64,000 nucleotides of DNA, taken from Picochlorum sp. 'celeri' (taxonomy: Eukaryota; Chlorophyta; Trebouxiophyceae). The DNA lies in assembly GCA_010909725.1 (NCBI GenBank), contig JAACMV010000014.1, forward strand, positions 558,001 to 622,000, written 5' to 3'. Positions 6,070-40,057 of the stretch are shown here, in pieces. The translations under genes were made by a program, and so were the position numbers. Position 1 is the stretch's first letter. Each line of letters starts with the position of its first letter. The notes below the pieces were generated by a model that was not told the DNA's origin, searched no databases, and saw only the letters and a program-made list of their open reading frames with translations.

Positions 6070-8670
6070 ATGCCGTTTCTGCAGTTCAAATCTTTGATAC
6101 CCAACATTTACAGCATATTCTCTACCCGAGAGAAGTTCTCGGTGGGTGAATTGCGGCGGGTTGCACGGGATTCTTCTGAAACCTCTCAACAAATTTGATG
6201 TATCCAGTAGGACGGAGTACATTGAAGCATTGCGGAGCATTGCTGAGATCATCATATGGTATGAATGAGTGTCTAGTGTATGTCAGCGAGTGTGATGGAT
6301 GAATCTTCATGGCACACGTGTGTGTAGGGGTGACCAGCATGATCCAGAGATTGTAGAGTACTTTTTGGATCAGAATATTCTGGGGTATTTTGGGCTGATT
6401 TTGGAAGATCCAGGGAACCGAAAAGGTGATGTCGCGATCCAGATACTACAGGTATGAATGCGCTCAAGTGATATGCCTCTGGATACCCTGCAGGTGATGA
6501 TGATGTCTTGTGTGTGTAGACTCTGAGCATTTTGATTCAAAACATAGGCGAGAAGGAGACGATATACTGCCTTTTTTCCAATAATCAGATTAATAAAATT
6601 GCATCGATGCGCTTCGATTTCGAAGATGATGAAGTACTGGGACTGTATGTGAATTTGTTGAAGACTATTTCATTAAAGTTGGATGAACATACTGTACAAT
6701 TTTTTTTGGTGCATCCTTCGTCAAAGCAAGGCAGGTTGAGGTTTCCTTTATACTCTGAAGCTCTAAAGTTTGGAACTAGTAAAGATGGAATGGTTCGGGC
6801 TGCAGTGAGGAATCTTACCTTGAATGCTTTCACAATCCCATCCATTTCTCTCCGCAGTTACTTTGGAGAAGAGGAGACACGGGATTTCTTTGATCATGTT
6901 TCGTCCGAGTTGAGGGATACATATAGACAGCTGGACCAATGTTTGCAATCTAAATCGTCGAACGGAGCCCAGGTAGAGCAGCTGTTATCGTACATTGATG
7001 ATGAATTCACATATTTCAATGATGTATGGTCAACAAATATACCAATGCTGCGATCTGTTGTGCTGCGATACTTTTGGAAATCGTGCATCCTTGATATTAT
7101 TTTGGCGGGTTTGGTGAAAAAGAGGGGTTCATCCATGCACCATATTAGCCAACTGGCAGTGCTTTGCATCTTGGAGACGTTCTTCTCATCAATTCAAAAT
7201 CGGTTCATTGCAAACACTTTTGGCATCAATTTTGCTTGGAGGAGACTCAGTCGGCATTGCAGATGAAATTCTTGTTGAACTCAAGGGTGACTCGGATTTT
7301 GAAAAGGATATGCTGTCTGTCAAGGATTTGGTCGTGAGCACCAATACAGAACAGGCACAAGCAGTGCGAGACGTATTGCTTTCTTCTCTGAAACACCATG
7401 ATCCTCACATCGTCAATGGAGCAGTGCGCTTAATAGCAAGCATCGCTGCTAATAGTAGTATATCAGAGGAGGTCTTGTCCACGATTGGTTTGGTGTTTGT
7501 TGAGAGGGGGGAAGAAGAGGTTCCAACAAGGAAGAGCACACCATCTCCAAATCATCATTTGCAGAGGAGAACCCCATCCCCAACGATGCCAGCTGATAGA
7601 GTGGATTCGTATCCAATGAGGCACTCGGAGATTTTTGAAAGCATTGCGTCGGCATCATTTGGTGATCGATTTGGAGAAATAGTGGAGGCAATGTTCAGTA
7701 TTGTTCAAGTGCCAAACATTTGTCCTCTGACATTGATGGCAGCAACATGGAGCCTGGCACACATGGCTGCGCCTGACGTGCACATTTTGAAAACATATTG
7801 TGACTCAAATGTATTGCAAGATATGATGCATATCCACTGTGATATGTTGTTGCAACTCGTTTCAACAGGGCAGTGGGCTGATGGTATCCCAATGATGATG
7901 AAATTCTACTGGAAGAAACATAGACAAATGTATCAGAAGAAGACCTTTGCGAGTATGCGATCTTGTGTCCTTTCATGGGAATTCTCCAATTTCTTGCAGA
8001 GATCTGGAAAGGTAGCGCAAGAGAAGAAGAGGGATTTGAAGTTTGACCTCAAAATGTGCTTACTGACAGTCATGAGCCTTGTCTCAACCATGCAGCTACG
8101 CCAACTTGTCAACCAAGGGCATATAGACGAGGAATTCCCTTTCCATGGACCCATGGAGACAAGTTGGGTAAAACTCAAAGACAAAGAACCCAAAGAAGGC
8201 GACCTTGTGAACCCAAGTGGCACCACACCTTGCCACATGGTCAATCAGAGCAACACCATGTGTGATTTGTTGCTCAAGCTAGAAACATCATCCAACCCAG
8301 ATGATGCGTGGTATGACAAAGTAGTTGCGGTAGTTTATTAGATGATAGTTCCAATAGCCTTACAGAGCCACAGAAAGTAGTAGCAGTGGCACCAGCAGCA
8401 TCTGCCCAGCCAACGAATGACAAGAAGAGTGCAACCCTCATGCATGTCGCTGTGAGGCCCCCACTCTCGACTGTTCTCAAGGCAATCACATTAGCGCCAA
8501 GCGGTGCAGATTTTTCCACATTGGATCATTGTATTTCATTAGAGAATTGGAGTGTTTCTTTTGTATCAACCGAAGATTGCTTATTGACGCACAATCTCTT
8601 GAAACAGGTGATTGAAGATCTCCGAGAGCGCTCCACCAAGTACATTATCGATATCAAATCAACACTGTAA
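6070..8670 (+). CDS. CLEC16A / TT9-like protein with FPL domain
   Basis: Homologue of CLEC16A/GOP-1 and plant TT9/GFS9, cytosolic proteins of endosomal and autophagic traffic. Exons: 6070-6258, 6328-6451, and 6520 onward. The introns are 69 and 68 bp, both with GTATGA donors and GTGTAG acceptors. The FPL domain spans the first ~190 residues, including [12 protein letters not shown], then the block around [20 protein letters not shown] and [14 protein letters not shown]. The rest is helical with a Ser/Pro-rich loop near 7530-7610. Three homopolymer indels interrupt the frame: an extra A at 6179-6181, an extra T at 7204-7205 and a missing T at 8334-8336. The start at 6070 is the first plausible ATG, but a further upstream exon cannot be excluded. 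The C-terminal ~110 residues (8342-8670) depend on the last correction. Confidence 0.8.
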
Positions 8671-26717: not shown

Positions 26718-29700
26718 ATGAATAACAATGATCAGGGGGTTCGGGATGGATATTATGCATCGAATATGAATGATCAGAATGTCCATGGATTGTTTCATGG
26801 TCTGAATTTGGGTCAACAGCAGTTTGACAGTGTTGGGGACCACCATCACAGTGGCAATGGAGGACACTATCAAGGGGGCCATGGGGGACACTATCAACAG
26901 TTTCCACCGACTTCATTTGGTTTGGCTCAGAGGAGTGGGTCGATTGGGAATCCAGTGCAGCCCATACTAGATCTTGCTGACGGTGGGGTTGCAACAGAGG
27001 TGCCACTGGCTGGGAACGTGAATCCATACCAGGCTGCTGCAAGTTTTCCTCACCATCACATGAATTTCATGCAGTATTCTGCTGCTGGTTTGGACCTGCA
27101 TCACGGGCAGGATGTGCCGGGGATGTTTCAAGGAGGGCATGGCTCCATGGCACCATCCTTGGTTGGATTTGAGAGCCACGGGATGCCTCATCAATCACAC
27201 ATGGGATGGGGTGGTCAGGCTATTGAAGATACTCAGAATGGACAAAAATCCATGTGGTTCGGAAAGGGACAGCCCCAGAATCGTCATTACCAGAACGGGA
27301 ATGGCAACAGGAGAGGCCGATACAGAGGCAAGTCTCAAGGACGCAGTGGCACACGAAATTTTTCAAGGCAACGATCTGGAACGTATGATGGATCGAGCGA
27401 CTCTTCTGATGTGTCTATCGACGATATACTGATGACTGTGTCACAAACTCCAGAGCATGAGCCAGTTGGGAGCAATGTCTTTGATAGTCTGTTGTCGCTT
27501 GATAGCAGGGCTGTGGCGTCCCTGCTCAAGGAATTGCTTCGCATGGGACTTGCTGCGAGAGCGGTGGAGATTTTTGATCGTATTCGAACATCTGACCCAA
27601 ATAGTCCCCTGAGTCTGTCACTGTTGGATGTATTTACGTATACTGCTGCGATTTCTCTGTGCATTTCCACACAAGATGTTGACAGAGCCTTGTCTCTGGC
27701 CTCTGAGATGAAGCAGAAGAAGATTCAATGCAACGTTCATACATACACTGCATTGATGAATGTGTGCATTAAATGCTCTAGATATGGACGTGCGCTCGAA
27801 ACGTATGAGGCGATGAGAGCAGACGGTTGTGTCCCAAATGTCGTTACATTCAATACATTGATTGATGTGTATGGCAAAACAGGTGCATGGGAGCAAGCCA
27901 TCCAAGTGTTGGATACAATGAGAAGAGAGGGCGTGAATCCAGTGTTGAGAACATATAATACCCTCTTGATTGCATGCAATATGTGCAACCAGCCCAGGGA
28001 GGCAATCTCTGCATATAAGAGGATGTTGGAGGAAGGTTTTACACCGAATTCAACGACATACAATGCATTGATATCAGCCTACGGGAAGTGTGGACAACTG
28101 GATCGGGTGATGGAAGTTTTCCAAGAGATGACGAGCAGAGGATGCGAGAAAAATGTCATCACCTTTTCTAGTCTCATCTCTGCATGTGAAAAGGCTGGTC
28201 AATGGCAGCTTGCACTCGACTTGTTCAAGGAGATGAGAAGAGAGCGCTGCAATCCAAATACAGTCACGTTTAATTCTCTGATCACTGCTCTGGGACAAGG
28301 AGGCCAATGGGAAAAAGCACTTAAGATATTTGACCAGATGAAGTCAAGAAACTGCACTCCTGATGTAGTGACATACACTGCTCTGATATCTGCAATGGAG
28401 AAGGGTGGCCAATGGAGATTGGCTCTCGAGTCTTTTGAAAGGATGAAAAGACAGGGCTGCAAAGCCGATGCTATTGTGTACAACGCAGTGGTGAATGCCT
28501 TGTGGGAGACAGGTATTGTGTGGGCGCAGAAGCATGCATTGCGGGTTTTCAAACAAGCTGCATCGGAGGGTCACTTTCCCCAGCAAACGTTGGTACCAGG
28601 CTTGCTGCGTGCAGAAGTAAACCTCCATGCAACAACTTCGGGTGTCGCCATGCTGTCTTTGTATGAATGGCTGCAAAATTTGCAACAGTTTATTCAAGAA
28701 TATGGCGAAGGGTCTGTTCCGTCAAAGGTTACCATTGTCACAGACAGGGGTCGTGGAGCGAGAGAGCAGGGAAACCTTGTCGTAAAAGAGGCTGTTACTG
28801 CGATGATGATGCATTGGAAATCCCCCTTCATGCTGTCTGGACAGAGGCATTATGCTGGTAGTCCCTCTTTGGAAGCAACAGGAGCAGACTTGGCTGCATG
28901 GGTCATTTCTGAAAGTTTCGACAAGGGAATTCACTCGTTCTTTTCATGCTCTAATCATGGTGCAGCAGAAGAGTTGGATGACCCTGGCGAACAAGTAGAG
29001 AAGGAGGTCCAAGAGAGGTGCTCAGCAGCATTTGCTGCTGTCAAACACTTTGAGAAGACACACTCCTTGTCAGTGCAGAACATGGGTTACCTTTATCTGC
29101 AAATGCGAGCAGATTTAGTTCAGAACTGCATAAAAATCAATACTGAATTGGGTGGCCCCGAAGAGTCTGTACAAGATGCAGTTCTATTGATGGACCGGGT
29201 CATGTCAACCAGTTTGAACTTTGCTTCTGAGGTTTTCGATCTTTTGGCCGCAGCGTGTGTTCTCATTGCATATAACCAGCTTGAATCGTCATCTCCGTTG
29301 GAAAAATGTGACAATGCACAAGTGGAGAAGGCTGCTGGACTTCCCATGTGGGCAATCAAGAGAATGGAATGGAGCATCCTTCAGGTTTTGGGCCAAGACA
29401 CTGCTTCCATATCAAGCATACGATGCGTCAAGCTCTTCATGGAGAGGCTTGGAACAGAACAATTGCCTAAGGCTGCAGCAGACGCACTGATGGGAGATGC
29501 TAAAGGACTTTGTCTGGACTGTGTATCCGACACAGCCTTTCTGAATTGCCGTCCTTCAATAACAGCAGCAGCTGTCATTTACGTGGACAGGAGGAATAGA
29601 GGAATCATTCCTTTCTGGCCATCATCTTTGGCTAAACTCAGTGGGTATACGGACGTCTCTGCCTTGGAATTGTCAATTGCAATCAAATCTGCTCAGCGCA

Positions 29701-30050
29701 TATATGGAAGCAGAAGTCAGGATTTGGAGAATGAGTTTGATGATTTGCATCAATCAGCAGAAGTCTTGCAACCTTCTATAAAGCATTCATCAAGCGAGAC
29801 CTACTTGCTTCCACAAGATGGCGGCGATGTTGCTGCTCCTCAAAGCACTGTTGCAAACATTTCAGCAGACAGGCAAGCAATCCTCGAGTCTCTTCAGCAA
29901 ATGGTTGCTCGATCTGTGGGCCCAAACACACCTGAAGATACAGATGTGAGTGCCCAAGGAGGAAGCAGTGGGGATCAGTGCTCGACAAATCCAAGTTCAA
30001 ACAATGAAAATTCGTCCTCTGGCCAATCGAGTGAGGATGGCAAGGCATAG
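26718..30050 (+). CDS. PPR-SMR-cyclin fusion protein (intact copy)
   Basis: 1110 residues, one exon. Residues 1-230 are low-complexity, His/Gly/Gln-rich with an Arg/Gly patch ([18 protein letters not shown]), possibly RNA-binding or targeting. Residues ~305-620 hold nine consecutive 35-residue PPR motifs ([35 protein letters not shown] and others), a sequence-specific RNA-binding array. Residues ~632-735 look like a SMR domain ([20 protein letters not shown], then [14 protein letters not shown]). Residues ~775-1000 look like a two-lobed cyclin fold: [35 protein letters not shown], then [13 protein letters not shown] and [18 protein letters not shown]. The tail is Ser/Asn-rich. PPR-SMR proteins of plants (GUN1, pTAC2, SOT1) work in plastids; the added cyclin module is unusual. 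The first 53 codons exist only in this copy. Confidence 0.85.
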   Translation: MNNNDQGVRDGYYASNMNDQNVHGLFHGLNLGQQQFDSVGDHHHSGNGGHYQGGHGGHYQQFPPTSFGLAQRSGSIGNPVQPILDLADGGVATEVPLAGNVNPYQAAASFPHHHMNFMQYSAAGLDLHHGQDVPGMFQGGHGSMAPSLVGFESHGMPHQSHMGWGGQAIEDTQNGQKSMWFGKGQPQNRHYQNGNGNRRGRYRGKSQGRSGTRNFSRQRSGTYDGSSDSSDVSIDDILMTVSQTPEHEPVGSNVFDSLLSLDSRAVASLLKELLRMGLAARAVEIFDRIRTSDPNSPLSLSLLDVFTYTAAISLCISTQDVDRALSLASEMKQKKIQCNVHTYTALMNVCIKCSRYGRALETYEAMRADGCVPNVVTFNTLIDVYGKTGAWEQAIQVLDTMRREGVNPVLRTYNTLLIACNMCNQPREAISAYKRMLEEGFTPNSTTYNALISAYGKCGQLDRVMEVFQEMTSRGCEKNVITFSSLISACEKAGQWQLALDLFKEMRRERCNPNTVTFNSLITALGQGGQWEKALKIFDQMKSRNCTPDVVTYTALISAMEKGGQWRLALESFERMKRQGCKADAIVYNAVVNALWETGIVWAQKHALRVFKQAASEGHFPQQTLVPGLLRAEVNLHATTSGVAMLSLYEWLQNLQQFIQEYGEGSVPSKVTIVTDRGRGAREQGNLVVKEAVTAMMMHWKSPFMLSGQRHYAGSPSLEATGADLAAWVISESFDKGIHSFFSCSNHGAAEELDDPGEQVEKEVQERCSAAFAAVKHFEKTHSLSVQNMGYLYLQMRADLVQNCIKINTELGGPEESVQDAVLLMDRVMSTSLNFASEVFDLLAAACVLIAYNQLESSSPLEKCDNAQVEKAAGLPMWAIKRMEWSILQVLGQDTASISSIRCVKLFMERLGTEQLPKAAADALMGDAKGLCLDCVSDTAFLNCRPSITAAAVIYVDRRNRGIIPFWPSSLAKLSGYTDVSALELSIAIKSAQRIYGSRSQDLENEFDDLHQSAEVLQPSIKHSSSETYLLPQDGGDVAAPQSTVANISADRQAILESLQQMVARSVGPNTPEDTDVSAQGGSSGDQCSTNPSSNNENSSSGQSSEDGKA

Positions 30051-30415
30051 TTAAGAGATGCTTGCTACAAAAGCATTTCAATTTTTTTGAGAATGGATGA
30101 ACACACACATGCGCAATGGATTACGTTTCCGTCTGTGTACATCTGAGTATAATAGAAAGAAGAAGATTTTTTTACCAACGGATGCTGCAGAAGAAGAGTG
30201 TACATGATATCAATGATACCAGCATATCAATTTGATTGTTACGGGACTGCTTCCGCAATAATGCTGCACATTGGCAGCAATACTACTACGATACGATTTT
30301 TTTCCACTCTGTTATGATATCTTATGAAGAAGAAAAAACTACTCTACATTGTTTACTGAATTACATGTGACCTTGTATGATAATCCTGTAGGCATTCTGT
30401 AGACTCTTGTCATGA
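30051..30415. other. Intergenic region between convergent PPR-SMR-cyclin and TOM20 genes
   Basis: 365 bp of 3' flanks from two convergent genes; A/T runs but no gene seen. Repeated at 36285-36649. Confidence 0.5.
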
Positions 30416-31189
30416 CTATGCTGCTGTAGGTGCCGACCTGCTCGATAATGCAGCCACCCCAAACCCAATGCCCACCAAAACTACCCAACCGGCAACGTCA
30501 TACCAAAAATCACTAATCATTGGCTCTCTTCTCTTTCCTGCTGCTGCATCTCCCCCAGAGGCTTTTCTCCCCTCACCTCCACCCATGGCTCCTCCTGCAG
30601 CTTGCAACTGTTTCTGTAACTCTGCATACAACTGTGGGGCTTTGGAAGACATCTCAAGAGCCCTTTTGTAGGAATCATTCGTTGGCTCGAACTCGACTGC
30701 CTTTTTAAAGCAATCCCCAGCCTTGTTGAAAAACTCATCTGCCTTCTCAGACGTTGGCGACAAAAATCCTTGCGACGTGTACGCATTTCCAAGACACCAA
30801 AGAGCGTCATGACGTGCATCATCAATATCCAGTGCCTGCTGAAACTTGGCAATAGCATCCTCAATCATGGAGTATGCCTCCTGCCCTTGTCTAAAGTGTG
30901 CCAACTCCAACAGAGCTCCGCCCCACTTTGTCAACGCCTGTATACATTCATTCAATAATCACTATTAATATAAACACATAGTCAGTAGACACGCAGATAA
31001 AGCGAATCCGCACCAGGGCATCCTTATTGTTTGCAGTAAATTCTCTTTCAGCCTGCTCCCGCGCTTGTTCAAAGAACATCAGCCTACAGATCACATAAAT
31101 TTAAATGTTATTTACGTATATGCGTATAGATGTGCGCCAACCGAAAGGAAAACACACCTTTCAATGTCTTCTCTGCTCAGTGACTCCAT
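30416..31189 (-). CDS. TOM20: Plant-type TOM20 mitochondrial import receptor (copy 1)
   Basis: Exons 31158-31189, 31014-31083 and 30416-30937 give 207 residues; introns are 74 and 76 bp (GTGTGT and GTGCGG donors). The start MESLSREDIERLMFFEQAR and the block LTKWGGALLELAHF match plant TOM20, as do HDALWCLGNAYTS and EMSSKAPQLYAELQKQ. Two TPR-like helical hairpins bind presequences. A Gly-rich linker leads to a C-terminal membrane anchor (VAGWVVLVGIGFGVAAL). The C-terminal anchor is the plant arrangement, opposite to the N-terminal anchor of fungal and animal Tom20, and supports a green-lineage host. It lies 67 bp downstream of ALG13 on the same strand. Confidence 0.93.
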
Positions 31190-31256
31190 GATGTCGTTAT
31201 TCAGCGGCGTATATCAATCGATCTATGCTATTCTATCTCTAATTTAAAGTAATATA

Positions 31257-31823
31257 TCAATAACCCAATTCTTTATCGATATCTTTTGCTATTGCCGACC
31301 CATCCTGTGGAATGTATGGTTTCAAAGATCTCCTATCAAAATGTTCAACAGCCTCGACCAAAGTCCTCGTTGTTGCTACTTGCAAATGACCCAAGCGTTG
31401 CAAATGGTTGGCCAATTCCATCTGATGATTGTCCATCAGGCTCTCATTCGGCACAGTAATCAGGCCAGCGCCGGACGAGAGTGTTTCAAATATGCTCCCA
31501 GCTCCAGCATGGGAAATAACCAGATCACAGTCATTGATGATGGTTTTCAGAACAGGCGTGTATCGGAACCATTCCACTTGAAACATAGATCCATCGTGGT
31601 TGGGGATGGAGGCCTTTCCCGAGTCGTCATCTGGGTCCGATGTGGGGCATAGGTGCAGGGGAACATGACTTGAGGACCCAATCTGAAGCAGCAGTTTTGA
31701 GTATCCTTTTCTTTGTAATACACGGACAAGTTCCAGCGAATCTGCTGCTTTTGTTAATTCATTGAACTGTGTCGTTCCTACGGTGACGAGGACAGGGCCG
31801 AGTTTTCCACCTTCTCCAGACAT
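31257..31823 (-). CDS. ALG13: ALG13, UDP-GlcNAc transferase catalytic subunit (copy 1)
   Basis: 188 residues, one exon. With membrane partner ALG14 it adds the second GlcNAc to dolichol-PP-GlcNAc on the cytosolic face of the ER. Features: VLVTVGTTQFNELTKAAD at the N-terminus, LLLQIGSS, then DLVISHAGAGSIFETLSSG, the UDP-binding block of GT28 enzymes, and VPNESLMDNHQMELANHL. Length is typical of ALG13. Its ATG lies only 6 bp after the CSL4 stop on the same strand. Confidence 0.95.
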   Translation of the reverse strand: MSGEGGKLGPVLVTVGTTQFNELTKAADSLELVRVLQRKGYSKLLLQIGSSSHVPLHLCPTSDPDDDSGKASIPNHDGSMFQVEWFRYTPVLKTIINDCDLVISHAGAGSIFETLSSGAGLITVPNESLMDNHQMELANHLQRLGHLQVATTRTLVEAVEHFDRRSLKPYIPQDGSAIAKDIDKELGY

Positions 31824-31829
31824 TGTTGC

Positions 31830-32429
31830 TCACAATTGGACACACGCTTTTCTCTCTTCCTTCTCCTGCGTTTCCTTGCAAATCATACACGTCTCATCAA
31901 ACGGTATCATAAGATCCCCAGTAGTCTGACTCCTACAGGATACCACCCCCAGGCCTTTTTCAGCAGTTGTCAAGTAGTACGCTCGAGCGTCCCCCAGAGA
32001 CAGCACCTTTGCTCTTACAATATCTCTTGGTCTAAAACAACGATGAACTTCTAGTGCGTCAATATCGCTCGACCGAATATCTGAGTTTCGAATTAATCCA
32101 CTGAATTTTTCAACAACGTCCTTGCCTTTTACCTGTAGTATATCTAAAAAGACGTGTTTCTGAGATATTCTGACAACCTTGCACACAACTACATCCCCAA
32201 CGCGGGGGATCAAGACGGGACTAGGGTGCTCTTGAACAACGTGTACCACAATGTAAGAATCTCCGTCTTCCTGAACCGTTTTCTCTACCACCTTGCCCAC
32301 AAGAGACGAGCAAATGTAGTTCCCACTCTCAAATGTTCCTAGTCCAGCTCTGTACTGCGTGGTTCCATCCAGCACTGACGCGAGTCTTTCTCCAGGGGTA
32401 CAGAATCTATCAGTATTCTCATCAGTCAT
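31830..32429 (-). CDS. CSL4: Exosome subunit CSL4/EXOSC1 (copy 1)
   Basis: 199 residues from ATG 32429; the upstream frame extension to 32519 has weaker start context and no conservation. Cap subunit of the RNA exosome. The N-terminal part has the CTPGERL block typical of Csl4, then an S1 domain (VGDVVVCKVVRISQKHVFLDIL, FSGLIRNSDIRSSDIDALEVH), then a C-terminal GLGVVSCRS and ETCMICKETQ zinc-ribbon-like end. Divergent from RPL10A with 438 bp between starts. Confidence 0.92.
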   Translation of the reverse strand: MTDENTDRFCTPGERLASVLDGTTQYRAGLGTFESGNYICSSLVGKVVEKTVQEDGDSYIVVHVVQEHPSPVLIPRVGDVVVCKVVRISQKHVFLDILQVKGKDVVEKFSGLIRNSDIRSSDIDALEVHRCFRPRDIVRAKVLSLGDARAYYLTTAEKGLGVVSCRSQTTGDLMIPFDETCMICKETQEKEERKACVQL

Positions 32430-32867
32430 ACTGAATGAAAAATGAATCAAGTTGCGAAACCGGTATGCCACCACGTATATGCATGCGTTTGCACCACGAT
32501 GGTCGTCACCCATCAACACCTTTTTTGATGGGAGGACGCCTCTCCATCAGAATCGCTGGATTCTCCGTAAAAAGATGACAAAAAATGACACACAAGTGAG
32601 TGGACCATGGCCATCCTGTGGCAGTATTATTTGATCAGGGATTCATCAAGTAATAAAAGCATATACCACTTTCCATGTACGTTGTAAAGAGGCATGCGAG
32701 TGCAAGCCAACAGTGGTGGCATGTCTCGTCACCTTGACTGCGGCGGCCTAAAGTTTCTCTTCGAAACAGGTCTAGCGATGTGATTGCCGAGTTCATTTTG
32801 CTGACAATAATTATTTTTATACTTCTGTGACGCAGATAGTAAACAACGTTGACCAGACCATAGAAAA
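32430..32867. promoter_or_regulatory. CSL4/RPL10A bidirectional promoter, copy 1 (now drives the chimera)
   Basis: 438 bp between divergent starts. Because the duplication carries it intact, this copy sits directly upstream of the RPL10A-PPR chimeric frame. A TATTTTTATAC stretch near 32813 could be a core element. Confidence 0.6.
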
Positions 32868-35800
32868 ATGTCCAAGGTATCAGGAGACACCCTCAGGGAG
32901 GCCATCCAAACCATGCTCAAGGGAGCTGAGGATAAGCCAAGAAAGTTCCAGGAGACTATTGAGCTTCAGATTGGTTTGAAGAACTATGATCCACAGAAGG
33001 ATAAGCGTTTCAGTGGAGCCGTGAAGCTTCCATACTGCCCACGCCCATCCATGAAGGTTTGCGTTCTTGGAGACGTGAACCATTGTGAGCAGGCTACTGC
33101 TCATCATGAGGGCCATGGGGGACACTATCAACAGTTTCCACCGACTTCATTTGGTTTGGCTCAGAGGAGTGGGTCGATTGGGAATCCAGTGCAGCCCATA
33201 CTAGATCTTGCTGACGGTGGGGTTGCAACAGAGGTGCCACTGGCTGGGAACGTGAATCCATACCAGGCTGCTGCAAGTTTTCCTCACCATCACATGAATT
33301 TCATGCAGTATTCTGCTGCTGGTTTGGACCTGCATCACGGGCAGGATGTGCCGGGGATGTTTCAAGGAGGGCATGGCTCCATGGCACCATCCTTGGTTGG
33401 ATTTGAGAGCCACGGGATGCCTCATCAATCACACATGGGATGGGGTGGTCAGGCTATTGAAGATACTCAGAATGGACAAAAATCCATGTGGTTCGGAAAG
33501 GGACAGCCCCAGAATCGTCATTACCAGAACGGGAATGGCAACAGGAGAGGCCGATACAGAGGCAAGTCTCAAGGACGCAGTGGCACACGAAATTTTTCAA
33601 GGCAACGATCTGGAACGTATGATGGATCGAGCGACTCTTCTGATGTGTCTATCGACGATATACTGATGACTGTGTCACAAACTCCAGAGCATGAGCCAGT
33701 TGGGAGCAATGTCTTTGATAGTCTGTTGTCGCTTGATAGCAGGGCTGTGGCGTCCCTGCTCAAGGAATTGCTTCGCATGGGACTTGCTGCGAGAGCGGTG
33801 GAGATTTTTGATCGTATTCGAACATCTGACCCAAATAGTCCCCTGAGTCTGTCACTGTTGGATGTATTTACGTATACTGCTGCGATTTCTCTGTGCATTT
33901 CCACACAAGATGTTGACAGAGCCTTGTCTCTGGCCTCTGAGATGAAGCAGAAGAAGATTCAATGCAACGTTCATACATACACTGCATTGATGAATGTGTG
34001 CATTAAATGCTCTAGATATGGACGTGCGCTCGAAACGTATGAGGCGATGAGAGCAGACGGTTGTGTCCCAAATGTCGTTACATTCAATACATTGATTGAT
34101 GTGTATGGCAAAACAGGTGCATGGGAGCAAGCCATCCAAGTGTTGGATACAATGAGAAGAGAGGGCGTGAATCCAGTGTTGAGAACATATAATACCCTCT
34201 TGATTGCATGCAATATGTGCAACCAGCCCAGGGAGGCAATCTCTGCATATAAGAGGATGTTGGAGGAAGGTTTTACACCGAATTCAACGACATACAATGC
34301 ATTGATATCAGCCTACGGGAAGTGTGGACAACTGGATCGGGTGATGGAAGTTTTCCAAGAGATGACGAGCAGAGGATGCGAGAAAAATGTCATCACCTTT
34401 TCTAGTCTCATCTCTGCATGTGAAAAGGCTGGTCAATGGCAGCTTGCACTCGACTTGTTCAAGGAGATGAGAAGAGAGCGCTGCAATCCAAATACAGTCA
34501 CGTTTAATTCTCTGATCACTGCTCTGGGACAAGGAGGCCAATGGGAAAAAGCACTTAAGATATTTGACCAGATGAAGTCAAGAAACTGCACTCCTGATGT
34601 AGTGACATACACTGCTCTGATATCTGCAATGGAGAAGGGTGGCCAATGGAGATTGGCTCTCGAGTCTTTTGAAAGGATGAAAAGACAGGGCTGCAAAGCC
34701 GATGCTATTGTGTACAACGCAGTGGTGAATGCCTTGTGGGAGACAGGTATTGTGTGGGCGCAGAAGCATGCATTGCGGGTTTTCAAACAAGCTGCATCGG
34801 AGGGTCACTTTCCCCAGCAAACGTTGGTACCAGGCTTGCTGCGTGCAGAAGTAAACCTCCATGCAACAACTTCGGGTGTCGCCATGCTGTCTTTGTATGA
34901 ATGGCTGCAAAATTTGCAACAGTTTATTCAAGAATATGGCGAAGGGTCTGTTCCGTCAAAGGTTACCATTGTCACAGACAGGGGTCGTGGAGCGAGAGAG
35001 CAGGGAAACCTTGTCGTAAAAGAGGCTGTTACTGCGATGATGATGCATTGGAAATCCCCCTTCATGCTGTCTGGACAGAGGCATTATGCTGGTAGTCCCT
35101 CTTTGGAAGCAACAGGAGCAGACTTGGCTGCATGGGTCATTTCTGAAAGTTTCGACAAGGGAATTCACTCGTTCTTTTCATGCTCTAATCATGGTGCAGC
35201 AGAAGAGTTGGATGACCCTGGCGAACAAGTAGAGAAGGAGGTCCAAGAGAGGTGCTCAGCAGCATTTGCTGCTGTCAAACACTTTGAGAAGACACACTCC
35301 TTGTCAGTGCAGAACATGGGTTACCTTTATCTGCAAATGCGAGCAGATTTAGTTCAGAACTGCATAAAAATCAATACTGAATTGGGTGGCCCCGAAGAGT
35401 CTGTACAAGATGCAGTTCTATTGATGGACCGGGTCATGTCAACCAGTTTGAACTTTGCTTCTGAGGTTTTCGATCTTTTGGCCGCAGCGTGTGTTCTCAT
35501 TGCATATAACCAGCTTGAATCGTCATCTCCGTTGGAAAAATGTGACAATGCACAAGTGGAGAAGGCTGCTGGACTTCCCATGTGGGCAATCAAGAGAATG
35601 GAATGGAGCATCCTTCAGGTTTTGGGCCAAGACACTGCTTCCATATCAAGCATACGATGCGTCAAGCTCTTCATGGAGAGGCTTGGAACAGAACAATTGC
35701 CTAAGGCTGCAGCAGACGCACTGATGGGAGATGCTAAAGGACTTTGTCTGGACTGTGTATCCGACACAGCCTTTCTGAATTGCCGTCCTTCAATAACAGC

Positions 35801-36284
35801 AGCAGCTGTCATTTACGTGGACAGGAGGAATAGAGGAATCATTCCTTTCTGGCCATCATCTTTGGCTAAACTCAGTGGGTATACGGACGTCTCTGCCTTG
35901 GAATTGTCAATTGCAATCAAATCTGCTCAGCGCATATATGGAAGCAGAAGTCAGGATTTGGAGAATGAGTTTGATGATTTGCATCAATCAGCAGAAGTCT
36001 TGCAACCTTCTATAAAGCATTCATCAAGCGAGACCTACTTGCTTCCACAAGATGGCGGCGATGTTGCTGCTCCTCAAAGCACTGTTGCAAACATTTCAGC
36101 AGACAGGCAAGCAATCCTCGAGTCTCTTCAGCAAATGGTTGCTCGATCTGTGGGCCCAAACACACCTGAAGATACAGATGTGAGTGCCCAAGGAGGAAGC
36201 AGTGGGGATCAGTGCTCGACAAATCCAAGTTCAAACAATGAAAATTCGTCCTCTGGCCAATCGAGTGAGGATGGCAAGGCATAG
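32868..36284 (+). CDS. Chimeric gene: RPL10A N-terminus fused in frame to PPR-SMR-cyclin
   Basis: 1138 codons without a stop. Residues 1-78 are identical to the start of ribosomal protein L10a (uL1), beginning [14 protein letters not shown] and ending EQATA. Three junction codons (HHE) follow, then residues 54-1110 of the PPR-SMR-cyclin protein, keeping all PPR, SMR and cyclin modules. The first 53 residues of the parent protein, where any targeting signal would be, are replaced. The DNA upstream is an exact copy of the RPL10A promoter, so high constitutive transcription is expected. L10a is truncated before most of its RNA-binding core, so it should not function as a ribosomal protein. Origin is the tandem duplication junction; expression is not shown by sequence. 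Confidence 0.9.
33103..33109. other. 7-bp filler at the duplication junction
   Basis: ATCATGA is present in neither parent sequence at the breakpoint. RPL10A identity stops at 33102 and PPR identity starts at 33110. With its flanks (33100-33113) it forms a 14-mer that recurs at 39935-39948. Confidence 0.9.
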
Positions 36285-36649
36285 TTAAGAGATGCTTGCT
36301 ACAAAAGCATTTCAATTTTTTTGAGAATGGATGAACACACACATGCGCAATGGATTACGTTTCCGTCTGTGTACATCTGAGTATAATAGAAAGAAGAAGA
36401 TTTTTTTACCAACGGATGCTGCAGAAGAAGAGTGTACATGATATCAATGATACCAGCATATCAATTTGATTGTTACGGGACTGCTTCCGCAATAATGCTG
36501 CACATTGGCAGCAATACTACTACGATACGATTTTTTTCCACTCTGTTATGATATCTTATGAAGAAGAAAAAACTACTCTACATTGTTTACTGAATTACAT
36601 GTGACCTTGTATGATAATCCTGTAGGCATTCTGTAGACTCTTGTCATGA
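36285..36649. other. Intergenic region, duplicate of 30051-30415
   Basis: Same 3' flanks as in copy 1; no gene seen. Confidence 0.5.
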
Positions 36650-37423
36650 CTATGCTGCTGTAGGTGCCGACCTGCTCGATAATGCAGCCACCCCAAACCC
36701 AATGCCCACCAAAACTACCCAACCGGCAACGTCATACCAAAAATCACTAATCATTGGCTCTCTTCTCTTTCCTGCTGCTGCATCTCCCCCAGAGGCTTTT
36801 CTCCCCTCACCTCCACCCATGGCTCCTCCTGCAGCTTGCAACTGTTTCTGTAACTCTGCATACAACTGTGGGGCTTTGGAAGACATCTCAAGAGCCCTTT
36901 TGTAGGAATCATTCGTTGGCTCGAACTCGACTGCCTTTTTAAAGCAATCCCCAGCCTTGTTGAAAAACTCATCTGCCTTCTCAGACGTTGGCGACAAAAA
37001 TCCTTGCGACGTGTACGCATTTCCAAGACACCAAAGAGCGTCATGACGTGCATCATCAATATCCAGTGCCTGCTGAAACTTGGCAATAGCATCCTCAATC
37101 ATGGAGTATGCCTCCTGCCCTTGTCTAAAGTGTGCCAACTCCAACAGAGCTCCGCCCCACTTTGTCAACGCCTGTATACATTCATTCAATAATCACTATT
37201 AATATAAACACATAGTCAGTAGACACGCAGATAAAGCGAATCCGCACCAGGGCATCCTTATTGTTTGCAGTAAATTCTCTTTCAGCCTGCTCCCGCGCTT
37301 GTTCAAAGAACATCAGCCTACAGATCACATAAATTTAAATGTTATTTACGTATATGCGTATAGATGTGCGCCAACCGAAAGGAAAACACACCTTTCAATG
37401 TCTTCTCTGCTCAGTGACTCCAT
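36650..37423 (-). CDS. TOM20: Plant-type TOM20 (copy 2)
   Basis: Exons 37392-37423, 37248-37317 and 36650-37171, encoding the same 207 residues as copy 1. Promoter, introns and 3' flank are all inside the duplicated unit, so the copy should be fully functional and would double gene dosage. Confidence 0.93.
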
Positions 37424-37490
37424 GATGTCGTTATTCAGCGGCGTATATCAATCGATCTATGCTATTCTATCTCTAATTTAAAGTAATATA

Positions 37491-38057
37491 TCAATAACCC
37501 AATTCTTTATCGATATCTTTTGCTATTGCCGACCCATCCTGTGGAATGTATGGTTTCAAAGATCTCCTATCAAAATGTTCAACAGCCTCGACCAAAGTCC
37601 TCGTTGTTGCTACTTGCAAATGACCCAAGCGTTGCAAATGGTTGGCCAATTCCATCTGATGATTGTCCATCAGGCTCTCATTCGGCACAGTAATCAGGCC
37701 AGCGCCGGACGAGAGTGTTTCAAATATGCTCCCAGCTCCAGCATGGGAAATAACCAGATCACAGTCATTGATGATGGTTTTCAGAACAGGCGTGTATCGG
37801 AACCATTCCACTTGAAACATAGATCCATCGTGGTTGGGGATGGAGGCCTTTCCCGAGTCGTCATCTGGGTCCGATGTGGGGCATAGGTGCAGGGGAACAT
37901 GACTTGAGGACCCAATCTGAAGCAGCAGTTTTGAGTATCCTTTTCTTTGTAATACACGGACAAGTTCCAGCGAATCTGCTGCTTTTGTTAATTCATTGAA
38001 CTGTGTCGTTCCTACGGTGACGAGGACAGGGCCGAGTTTTCCACCTTCTCCAGACAT
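37491..38057 (-). CDS. ALG13: ALG13 (copy 2)
   Basis: Identical 188-residue frame to copy 1 with the same 6-bp spacing to CSL4. Its obligate partner ALG14 is not in the window, so any dosage effect on the ALG13/ALG14 complex may be limited. Confidence 0.95.
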   Translation of the reverse strand: MSGEGGKLGPVLVTVGTTQFNELTKAADSLELVRVLQRKGYSKLLLQIGSSSHVPLHLCPTSDPDDDSGKASIPNHDGSMFQVEWFRYTPVLKTIINDCDLVISHAGAGSIFETLSSGAGLITVPNESLMDNHQMELANHLQRLGHLQVATTRTLVEAVEHFDRRSLKPYIPQDGSAIAKDIDKELGY

Positions 38058-38063
38058 TGTTGC

Positions 38064-38663
38064 TCACAATTGGACACACGCTTTTCTCTCTTCCTTCTCC
38101 TGCGTTTCCTTGCAAATCATACACGTCTCATCAAACGGTATCATAAGATCCCCAGTAGTCTGACTCCTACAGGATACCACCCCCAGGCCTTTTTCAGCAG
38201 TTGTCAAGTAGTACGCTCGAGCGTCCCCCAGAGACAGCACCTTTGCTCTTACAATATCTCTTGGTCTAAAACAACGATGAACTTCTAGTGCGTCAATATC
38301 GCTCGACCGAATATCTGAGTTTCGAATTAATCCACTGAATTTTTCAACAACGTCCTTGCCTTTTACCTGTAGTATATCTAAAAAGACGTGTTTCTGAGAT
38401 ATTCTGACAACCTTGCACACAACTACATCCCCAACGCGGGGGATCAAGACGGGACTAGGGTGCTCTTGAACAACGTGTACCACAATGTAAGAATCTCCGT
38501 CTTCCTGAACCGTTTTCTCTACCACCTTGCCCACAAGAGACGAGCAAATGTAGTTCCCACTCTCAAATGTTCCTAGTCCAGCTCTGTACTGCGTGGTTCC
38601 ATCCAGCACTGACGCGAGTCTTTCTCCAGGGGTACAGAATCTATCAGTATTCTCATCAGTCAT
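38064..38663 (-). CDS. CSL4: Exosome subunit CSL4 (copy 2)
   Basis: Identical to copy 1 (199 residues from ATG 38663), with its own copy of the divergent promoter shared with the intact RPL10A. Confidence 0.92.
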   Translation of the reverse strand: MTDENTDRFCTPGERLASVLDGTTQYRAGLGTFESGNYICSSLVGKVVEKTVQEDGDSYIVVHVVQEHPSPVLIPRVGDVVVCKVVRISQKHVFLDILQVKGKDVVEKFSGLIRNSDIRSSDIDALEVHRCFRPRDIVRAKVLSLGDARAYYLTTAEKGLGVVSCRSQTTGDLMIPFDETCMICKETQEKEERKACVQL

Positions 38664-39101
38664 ACTGAATGAAAAATGAATCAAGTTGCGAAACCGGTAT
38701 GCCACCACGTATATGCATGCGTTTGCACCACGATGGTCGTCACCCATCAACACCTTTTTTGATGGGAGGACGCCTCTCCATCAGAATCGCTGGATTCTCC
38801 GTAAAAAGATGACAAAAAATGACACACAAGTGAGTGGACCATGGCCATCCTGTGGCAGTATTATTTGATCAGGGATTCATCAAGTAATAAAAGCATATAC
38901 CACTTTCCATGTACGTTGTAAAGAGGCATGCGAGTGCAAGCCAACAGTGGTGGCATGTCTCGTCACCTTGACTGCGGCGGCCTAAAGTTTCTCTTCGAAA
39001 CAGGTCTAGCGATGTGATTGCCGAGTTCATTTTGCTGACAATAATTATTTTTATACTTCTGTGACGCAGATAGTAAACAACGTTGACCAGACCATAGAAA
39101 A
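38664..39101. promoter_or_regulatory. CSL4/RPL10A bidirectional promoter, copy 2 (drives intact RPL10A)
   Basis: 438 bp matching 32430-32867. This copy retains the original arrangement. Confidence 0.6.
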
Positions 39102-39752
39102 ATGTCCAAGGTATCAGGAGACACCCTCAGGGAGGCCATCCAAACCATGCTCAAGGGAGCTGAGGATAAGCCAAGAAAGTTCCAGGAGACTATTGAGCTT
39201 CAGATTGGTTTGAAGAACTATGATCCACAGAAGGATAAGCGTTTCAGTGGAGCCGTGAAGCTTCCATACTGCCCACGCCCATCCATGAAGGTTTGCGTTC
39301 TTGGAGACGTGAACCATTGTGAGCAGGCTACTGCTCTCGGTGTGGATGCCATGAGTGTGGAAGATTTGAAAAAGTTGAACAAGAACAAGAAGCTTGTGAA
39401 GAAGCTCGCCAAGAGATACGCAGCTTTCCTTGCCTCTGACTCTGTGATCAAGATGATCCCACGTCTCTTGGGTCCAGGATTGAACAAGGCAGGAAAGTTC
39501 CCAACCCTCGTGACGCACAATGACTCTCTGGAAGCAAAGATTACCGAAATCAGATCTACTGTCAAATATCAGTTGAAGAAGGTTTTGTGCATGGGTGTTG
39601 CCGTAGGAAATGTTGGCATGGCTGAGAAGGAACTCTTTGTCAACATTCAGATGGCCATCAATTTTTTGGTGTCTCTGTTGAAGAAGAACTGGCAGAACGT
39701 CAAGTCTCTTCACGTCAAGACCACCATGGGTAAGCCAGTCCGTCTCTTCTAA
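39102..39752 (+). CDS. RPL10A: Ribosomal protein L10a (uL1), intact
   Basis: 216 residues, one exon, the usual length. Component of the L1 stalk of the large cytosolic ribosomal subunit. Conserved blocks: [44 protein letters not shown] and the C-terminal [10 protein letters not shown]. Codons 1-78 and the upstream promoter are repeated 6234 bp to the left, where they now lead the chimeric gene. The duplication breakpoint at 39336 lies after the first base of codon 79. Confidence 0.97.
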
Positions 39753-40057
39753 ATGTATATGGGAAATGTATACGATACCAAAATGCTGCTGGTGCACAAC
39801 ACAATGTCCATGCATTCTTCATGCCTGACTATATCTCATCTTTGCATTACAAAAATGAGACATAGGAAGAACATAAGAAAGAAGAGATGCATACAGCATC
39901 TTCCTGGGCAGCGCCAACAGTCTTATTGGGAGCTCTCATCATGAGGGCGCTTGCAATCTATGCGAGTTACAGTATGAATCCCCACATGTAAAAATACACA
40001 ATTTCTATTCTTACAGAGGGTTACAAAAACAACCTGTATCATGAACATCGTATGCAT
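39753..40057. other. Intergenic region with possible template of the junction filler
   Basis: 305 bp between convergent RPL10A and FLU-like genes. It contains CTCATCATGAGGGC at 39935-39948, identical to the duplication junction. No gene seen. Confidence 0.6.

Follow-up and report, generated by a model that had tools for sequence, protein, structure and literature searches.

Tandem duplication is a well-known route by which chimeric genes, and thus new genes, arise. Sdic was formed in this way, by a tandem duplication across gene boundaries, and Quetzalcoatl is a further chimeric gene of the same kind. In Drosophila yakuba, 76 chimeras formed by tandem duplication have been described as polymorphic variants, in which the downstream gene supplies the 5' end and the upstream gene the 3' end, both parents remaining intact; 24 of the 76 displayed increased expression, and chimeras often changed expression whereas whole-gene tandem duplicates rarely did so (PMC5460883). 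Here, we describe a clean example of this route in the green alga Picochlorum celeri, which is of commercial interest (PMC7225527). The locus lies in a 64,000-nucleotide stretch, hereafter the window, that spans positions 558001–622000 of contig JAACMV010000014.1 (C14; 1,163,840 bases in total), and it joins the beginning of the gene for the ribosomal protein RPL10A (uL1) to most of a gene for a protein with pentatricopeptide repeats (PPRs) and a cyclin box (PPR-cyclin). Positions are those of the window unless a contig is named. As in D. yakuba, the 5' end comes from the downstream gene, the 3' end from the upstream gene, the parents are intact and the variant is polymorphic, here in heterozygous form. 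In contrast to the fly cases, the host is a unicellular alga represented by a single strain, and the fusion lies within coding sequence, with no introns at the joint.

Comparison of the window with itself using BLAST revealed a single repeat pair, 26869–33102 against 33103–39336 (6,234 bp, 99.968% identity), the sole two mismatches of which are the fifth and seventh bases past the joint. Because both mismatches fall within seven bases of the joint, we dropped the BLAST edges 26869 and 33103 as true breakpoints and read the locus as a 6,227-bp unit present twice, head to tail (26876–33102 and 33110–39336), with a 7-bp insertion between the copies (33103–33109). The two copies are identical at 6,227 of 6,227 sites, and the duplication itself is far beyond chance. 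Its ends are located inside two genes of the same strand, at codon 53 of the 1,110-codon PPR-cyclin open reading frame (ORF) on the left and at codon 78/79 of RPL10A on the right. Since both genes are on the plus strand, the joint connects them in frame, and the resulting ORF of 1138 codons (32868–36284, plus strand) is open throughout. Residues 1–78 are those of RPL10A, residues 79–81 are HHE, and residues 82–1138 correspond to PPR-cyclin residues 54–1110, a structure that a previous sequence-only reading of this DNA had proposed and that we confirmed base by base. Pfam matches along the chimera are Ribosomal_L1 at 23–80, the PPR repeats, Cyclin_N at 805–920 and Cyclin_C at 956–1009. The intact PPR-cyclin parent (26718–30050, plus strand; 1110 aa, with 99% identity to the Picochlorum sp. 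BPE23 protein P0001) lies to the left on the same scaffold and the intact RPL10A parent (39102–39752, plus strand; 216 aa, Pfam Ribosomal_L1 3.6e-53, full-length matches to solved uL1) to the right. The earlier view of an exon-free fusion with both parents preserved nearby is borne out as well: both parental ORFs are complete, the corresponding sites on the homologous contig are unbroken, and RPL10A reads end to end, without an intron, against solved uL1 chains.

The published P. celeri genome is a phased diploid of 27.43 Mbp in 2 x 15 scaffolds, with 46% G+C and a divergence of 0.8% between the haplotypes across the genome (PMC7225527). The assembly that we searched comprises 27,412,692 bases in 30 contigs, and the window itself has 45.8% G+C and an N count of 0. 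In C18, the contig homologous to C14, the unit is present as a single copy (578437–584664) and both breakpoint sites are unbroken and free of any scar, that is, the ancestral unduplicated arrangement exists alongside the duplicated one. Over the unit, C14 and C18 differ by nine single-nucleotide polymorphisms (SNPs; 28323, 28561, 29637, 30391, 30448, 30528, 31385, 32094 and 32664) and one 1-bp indel near 30081, and both C14 copies display the C14 allele at all ten differences. Since C18 is single-copy and C14 alleles occupy both C14 copies, the duplication is heterozygous and, in the assembly, restricted to the C14 haplotype. Two haplotypes run together into one contig are ruled out, both copies holding the alleles of one haplotype. 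A search of the assembly with a 130-bp stretch across the junction returned five matches, of which only the window's own was full length; the remaining four each covered one half and fell at the parental sites in C14 and in C18. Zero differences in 6,227 sites place the 95% upper bound on the divergence of the copies at ~0.05% (3/6,227, calculated by hand), compared with 0.14% (9/6,227) between the haplotypes over the same stretch. To judge from these counts, the duplication postdates the split of the haplotypes, or gene conversion has kept its copies identical. Three of the SNPs (28323, 28561 and 29637), all inside the duplicated PPR-cyclin ORF, alter the protein (K536Q, A615V and L974F, from C14 to C18), and the chimera has the C14 form at each. 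The restriction to one haplotype, the age relative to the haplotype split (or conversion) and the templated junction described below all go beyond what had been read from this DNA before.

Templated insertions, usually of 3–30 bp, are characteristic of polymerase-theta-mediated end joining (TMEJ) and have been described in Chlamydomonas, mainly in ku80 mutants (PMC8495919). At the joint studied here, the seven inserted bases, together with the three RPL10A bases before them and the four PPR-cyclin bases after them, make up a 14-mer with an exact second occurrence at 39935–39948 (plus strand). This occurrence lies outside the unit, 600 bp past the RPL10A breakpoint, and C18 has the same 14-mer at 585263. 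The site at 39935–39948 is the likely template. To gauge chance, we took 5,000 letter-shuffled 7-mers from the window and set each between the actual junction flanks: nine of the 5,000 had an equally long match somewhere in the window, both strands included, and three of the 5,000 had one as good within 2 kb of a parental breakpoint. The insertion thus matches a template close by, bordered by microhomology of 3 and 4 bp, and, like those of Chlamydomonas TMEJ, lies within the range of 3–30 bp and matches a nearby flank. By contrast, the breaks in Chlamydomonas were induced by Cas9 (PMC8495919), whereas the insertion in P. celeri accompanies a 6.2-kb tandem duplication and its repair enzyme is a candidate suggested by the footprint. 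A potential hairpin at the joint, CTCAT-C-ATGAG, was noticed by eye but rejected: 5-bp palindromes occur at ~0.12–0.17% of positions per loop length from 0 to 4, and the hairpin is unremarkable because its place and loop were freely chosen.

The event may have begun with two breaks or stalled ends, one at RPL10A codon 78/79 and the other at PPR-cyclin codon 53. One end would have copied a few bases from the template ~600 bp away before the ends were joined, leaving the 7-bp templated insertion. TMEJ is a plausible route, and so is replicative template switching, which leaves the same trace. The joint sets the whole RPL10A upstream region and codons 1–78 before PPR-cyclin codons 54–1110, in frame. 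Indeed, the 354-bp stretch from the ORF of the exosome component CSL4 (minus strand) to the start of RPL10A is fully copied 5' of the chimera (32514–32867), and its counterpart precedes the intact RPL10A in copy 2 (38748–39101). Because this whole stretch has been copied, the RPL10A promoter is presumably complete ahead of the chimera. The idea that the chimera sits behind a ribosomal-protein promoter therefore stands as far as the complete upstream copy is concerned, the promoter function of the stretch being presumed. The 3' side of the chimera is the PPR gene's own end. A transcript would be expected to start from the copied RPL10A promoter and to terminate at the 3' end proper to the PPR gene, and the dose of the chimera would follow that of a ribosomal-protein gene. 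In what follows, 'new gene' denotes a new ORF with a presumed promoter.

The chimera is predicted to encode a PPR-cyclin protein that begins with an incomplete uL1, lacks a short N-terminal motif of its parent and displays the same PPR repeats and cyclin box. Codons 1–78 of RPL10A probably hold no complete domain, because the breakpoint falls ~16 residues into the part of uL1 (residues 62–157) that the 104-residue PDB chain 9t3l_A covers alone. Downstream of the joint, the chimera keeps the parent's eight PPR_2 stretches as well as the cyclin matches. The PPR-cyclin N-terminus that it has lost is probably the real one, since an in-frame stop shortly precedes the parental ATG and the protein of BPE23 begins at the same residue. 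As the sequence-only reading had noted, residues 1–53 are gone; its further suggestion that the location of the protein could change is weakened by their composition (1 K/R, 5 D/E and 3 S/T), which by this crude measure resembles no transit peptide. The N-terminus is otherwise variable and polar, and its recognizable feature is a short LFxG(L/M)xL-type motif at residues 25–31 (26790–26810), in which L25, F26, G28 and L31 are shared by all ten aligned algal PPR-cyclin sequences (the window parent with P0001–P0006 and P0008–P0010 from the 120 listed matches, the shorter P0007 being excluded). Thus, the change in the chimera is likely to consist of the loss of this motif and the gain of a new promoter rather than the loss of a transit peptide.

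Both the parent and the chimera belong to a family of proteins in which Pfam recognizes a PPR array and a cyclin box; among the ten members scanned, Cyclin_C is matched in all ten and Cyclin_N in five. The chimera shares the PPR array and the Cyclin_N and Cyclin_C matches with algal PPR-cyclin proteins such as P0001 of Picochlorum sp. BPE23 and P0036 of Chlamydomonas reinhardtii (CHLRE_12g511400v5), but its first 53 residues, including the conserved motif, are swapped for 78 uL1 residues and HHE. The label PPR-SMR-cyclin, under which the parent had been described, is supported by Pfam for the PPR and cyclin parts but not for SMR. No Pfam Smr match was found in the parent, nine homologues, the isolated region 600–772, P0064 or P0017, although P0064 bears the name 'Smr domain-containing' in one source, and none appeared in P0036 among the 25 of 29 Pfam families shown. 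Likewise, none of the six weak PDB matches is an SMR protein by name. Land-plant PPR-SMR proteins display the SMR motifs LDXH and TGXG (PMC6662315). Judged by eye, the stretch after the PPR array in the algal protein has a faint likeness to these motifs, with VNLH in place of LDXH and TDRG in place of TGXG. A paralogue of the PPR stretch, with 66% DNA identity, lies on another pair of contigs, at C20:788001–788627 and C5:781196–781822.

No relative of the chimera was found among the listed protein matches. No uL1 domain stands beside a PPR array in the Pfam lists of the best 120 of 417 matches (8,000 candidates scored). When chimera residues 1–110 were compared with the protein database, 29 of 75 candidates matched; 28 of these have the uL1 Pfam domain, with other partner domains or none, and the remaining one is P0001. 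The database consists of representatives of clusters at 90% identity, and a deposited chimera may hide in the P0001 cluster, which has nine members. A Camellia gene model, P0143, joins PPR and uL1 domains, and we suspect it to be a merged gene model. The literature search turned up no report of the duplication, nor of any RPL10A fusion in Picochlorum, supplements and most subscription papers lying outside its reach.

An in-frame outcome of such a duplication is not beyond chance. We simulated 200,000 random tandem duplications of 6,227 bp on a single-copy version of the stretch, with ORFs standing in for genes, and obtained in-frame chimeras in 7.5% of cases for ORFs of at least 150 aa and in 6.2% for ORFs of at least 200 aa. 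The in-frame fusion is, in other words, a by-product at fair odds.

Taken together, these observations make it probable that the locus represents a genuine heterozygous tandem duplication of very recent date, with a templated joint, which produced an in-frame RPL10A/PPR-cyclin ORF that has been near-neutral so far. Several points weigh against this conclusion, most of them by fitting an assembly artefact in which FALCON-Unzip and FALCON-Phase would have traversed or joined one stretch twice within a single phase (a 'homotype' false duplication). The copies are perfectly identical, and the unit of 6.2 kb is close to the mean read length of 6.4 kb (N50 9.25 kb) in an assembly polished with long reads only (PMC7225527). 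A second perfect duplication confined to C14, with a transposon at its joint, is found ~41 kb past the end of the unit and could point to a recurring fault. In addition, the bases at the joint are near-native: five of the seven inserted bases agree with the native left flank (~1.3% expected by chance from a hand-calculated binomial), and base errors near a false joint might give the same likeness. Finally, no chimera was found among the listed protein matches, in a database limited to the 90% cluster representatives. Both types of false duplication are documented, and in three Vertebrate Genomes Project (VGP) assemblies the same scaffold held most of them (22.2 of 24.1, 4.8 of 5.8 and 3.4 of 5.6 Mbp) (PMC9516828). 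The heterotype kind, however, is contradicted by the C14 alleles at the nine SNPs and one indel in both copies, and heterotype errors exceeded homotype ones in five of the six tabulated assemblies (PMC9516828). The same study names gaps separating the copies as a sign of false duplication; the joint in the window has no gap. Moreover, a mis-join predicts no match such as that between the 14-bp context of the seven joint bases and a site 600 bp away, and we take this template match as a better reading of the insertion than its likeness to the native flank. An assembly artefact is therefore unlikely.

If the duplication is real, its effect might still lie elsewhere. It is possible, though we favour it less, that it acts, if at all, through the dose of TOM20, a glycosyltransferase and CSL4, whose ORFs are copied within the unit, with the chimeric ORF silent or its product degraded; the incomplete uL1 front could indeed destabilise the protein. 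However, the D. yakuba data point the other way, as it was chimeras (24 of 76 with increased expression), and rarely whole-gene duplicates, that changed expression (PMC5460883). It is rather improbable that the duplication is a mosaic, present on the C14 haplotype in part of the sequenced culture only. The DNA came from a grown population (PMC7225527) and the zero differences between the copies would fit an origin in culture, but the duplicated form is the assembled C14 form and hence probably common. Least credible of all, to the point of being remote, is the reading in which the chimera, expressed and dominant as a new gene, rose during strain selection or domestication and contributes to the very fast growth of the alga. 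Were it so, PPR-cyclin at ribosomal-protein level and freed of its N-terminal motif would alter organellar or cytosolic RNA control. On the preferred reading of a real duplication, the chimera is most likely a near-neutral by-product so far.

The interest of the locus lies in a chimeric gene seemingly caught at birth, with the parents, the ancestral allele, the chimera and the repair footprint preserved in one diploid genome. Cas9 editing works in this alga (PMC10808502, PMC12301381). Because all of these elements occur together in an editable organism, the first steps in the origin of a new gene, namely, expression, harm and selection, are directly testable in one strain. In addition, the locus supplies a green-algal example of a tandem duplication that arose naturally and carries a templated insertion.

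Between the two breakpoints, the unit comprises three further ORFs on the minus strand, each of which the duplication brings to a third genomic copy. The first is a plant-type TOM20 ORF (30416–30868, second copy 36650–37102; PF06552, 1.3e-36), which covers profile positions 50–176 of 187 and may have its N-terminus in another exon. The second, of 188 aa, encodes a glycosyltransferase family 28 C-terminal domain (31257–31823, second copy 37491–38057; PF04101, 2.6e-24). The third is the CSL4/EXOSC1 ORF, of 227 aa from its ATG (31830–32513, second copy 38064–38747; PF10447, 2.6e-15).

We also scanned 264 kb of the 1,163,840 bases of C14 for repeats of at least 150 bp and at least 90% identity and found four sets, including the unit; 60 kb of C18 scanned in the same way contained no such repeat. 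In one set (C14:638794–650764; L015:6794 to L016:8764), two identical 3,421-bp direct repeats flank a 5,129-bp element, whereas C18 has a single copy of the repeat. The element, a KDZ-type DNA transposon, matches a KDZ (Kyakuja-Dileera-Zisupton) transposase and has 12 further near-full-length copies with 99–100% identity (rounded) in the assembly; the arrangement resembles either a tandem duplication whose joint holds a transposon or an assembly fault. The 3.4-kb repeat cuts a multicopper-oxidase-like ORF of 641 aa (L015:6133–8058), the second copy of which (L016:5337–6608) has the same start and ends at 423 aa. Another set (C14:666896–676319; from L018:4896) is a tandem pair of 4.7 kb, 99.4% identical, with shorter internal repeats and no ORF of at least 150 aa; it belongs to a family dispersed over many contigs, with 56 matches of which many are short. 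The last is a direct 1.6-kb pair (C14:777660–779291 and C14:790852–792485; from L029:5660), 96.4% identical and ~11.6 kb apart.

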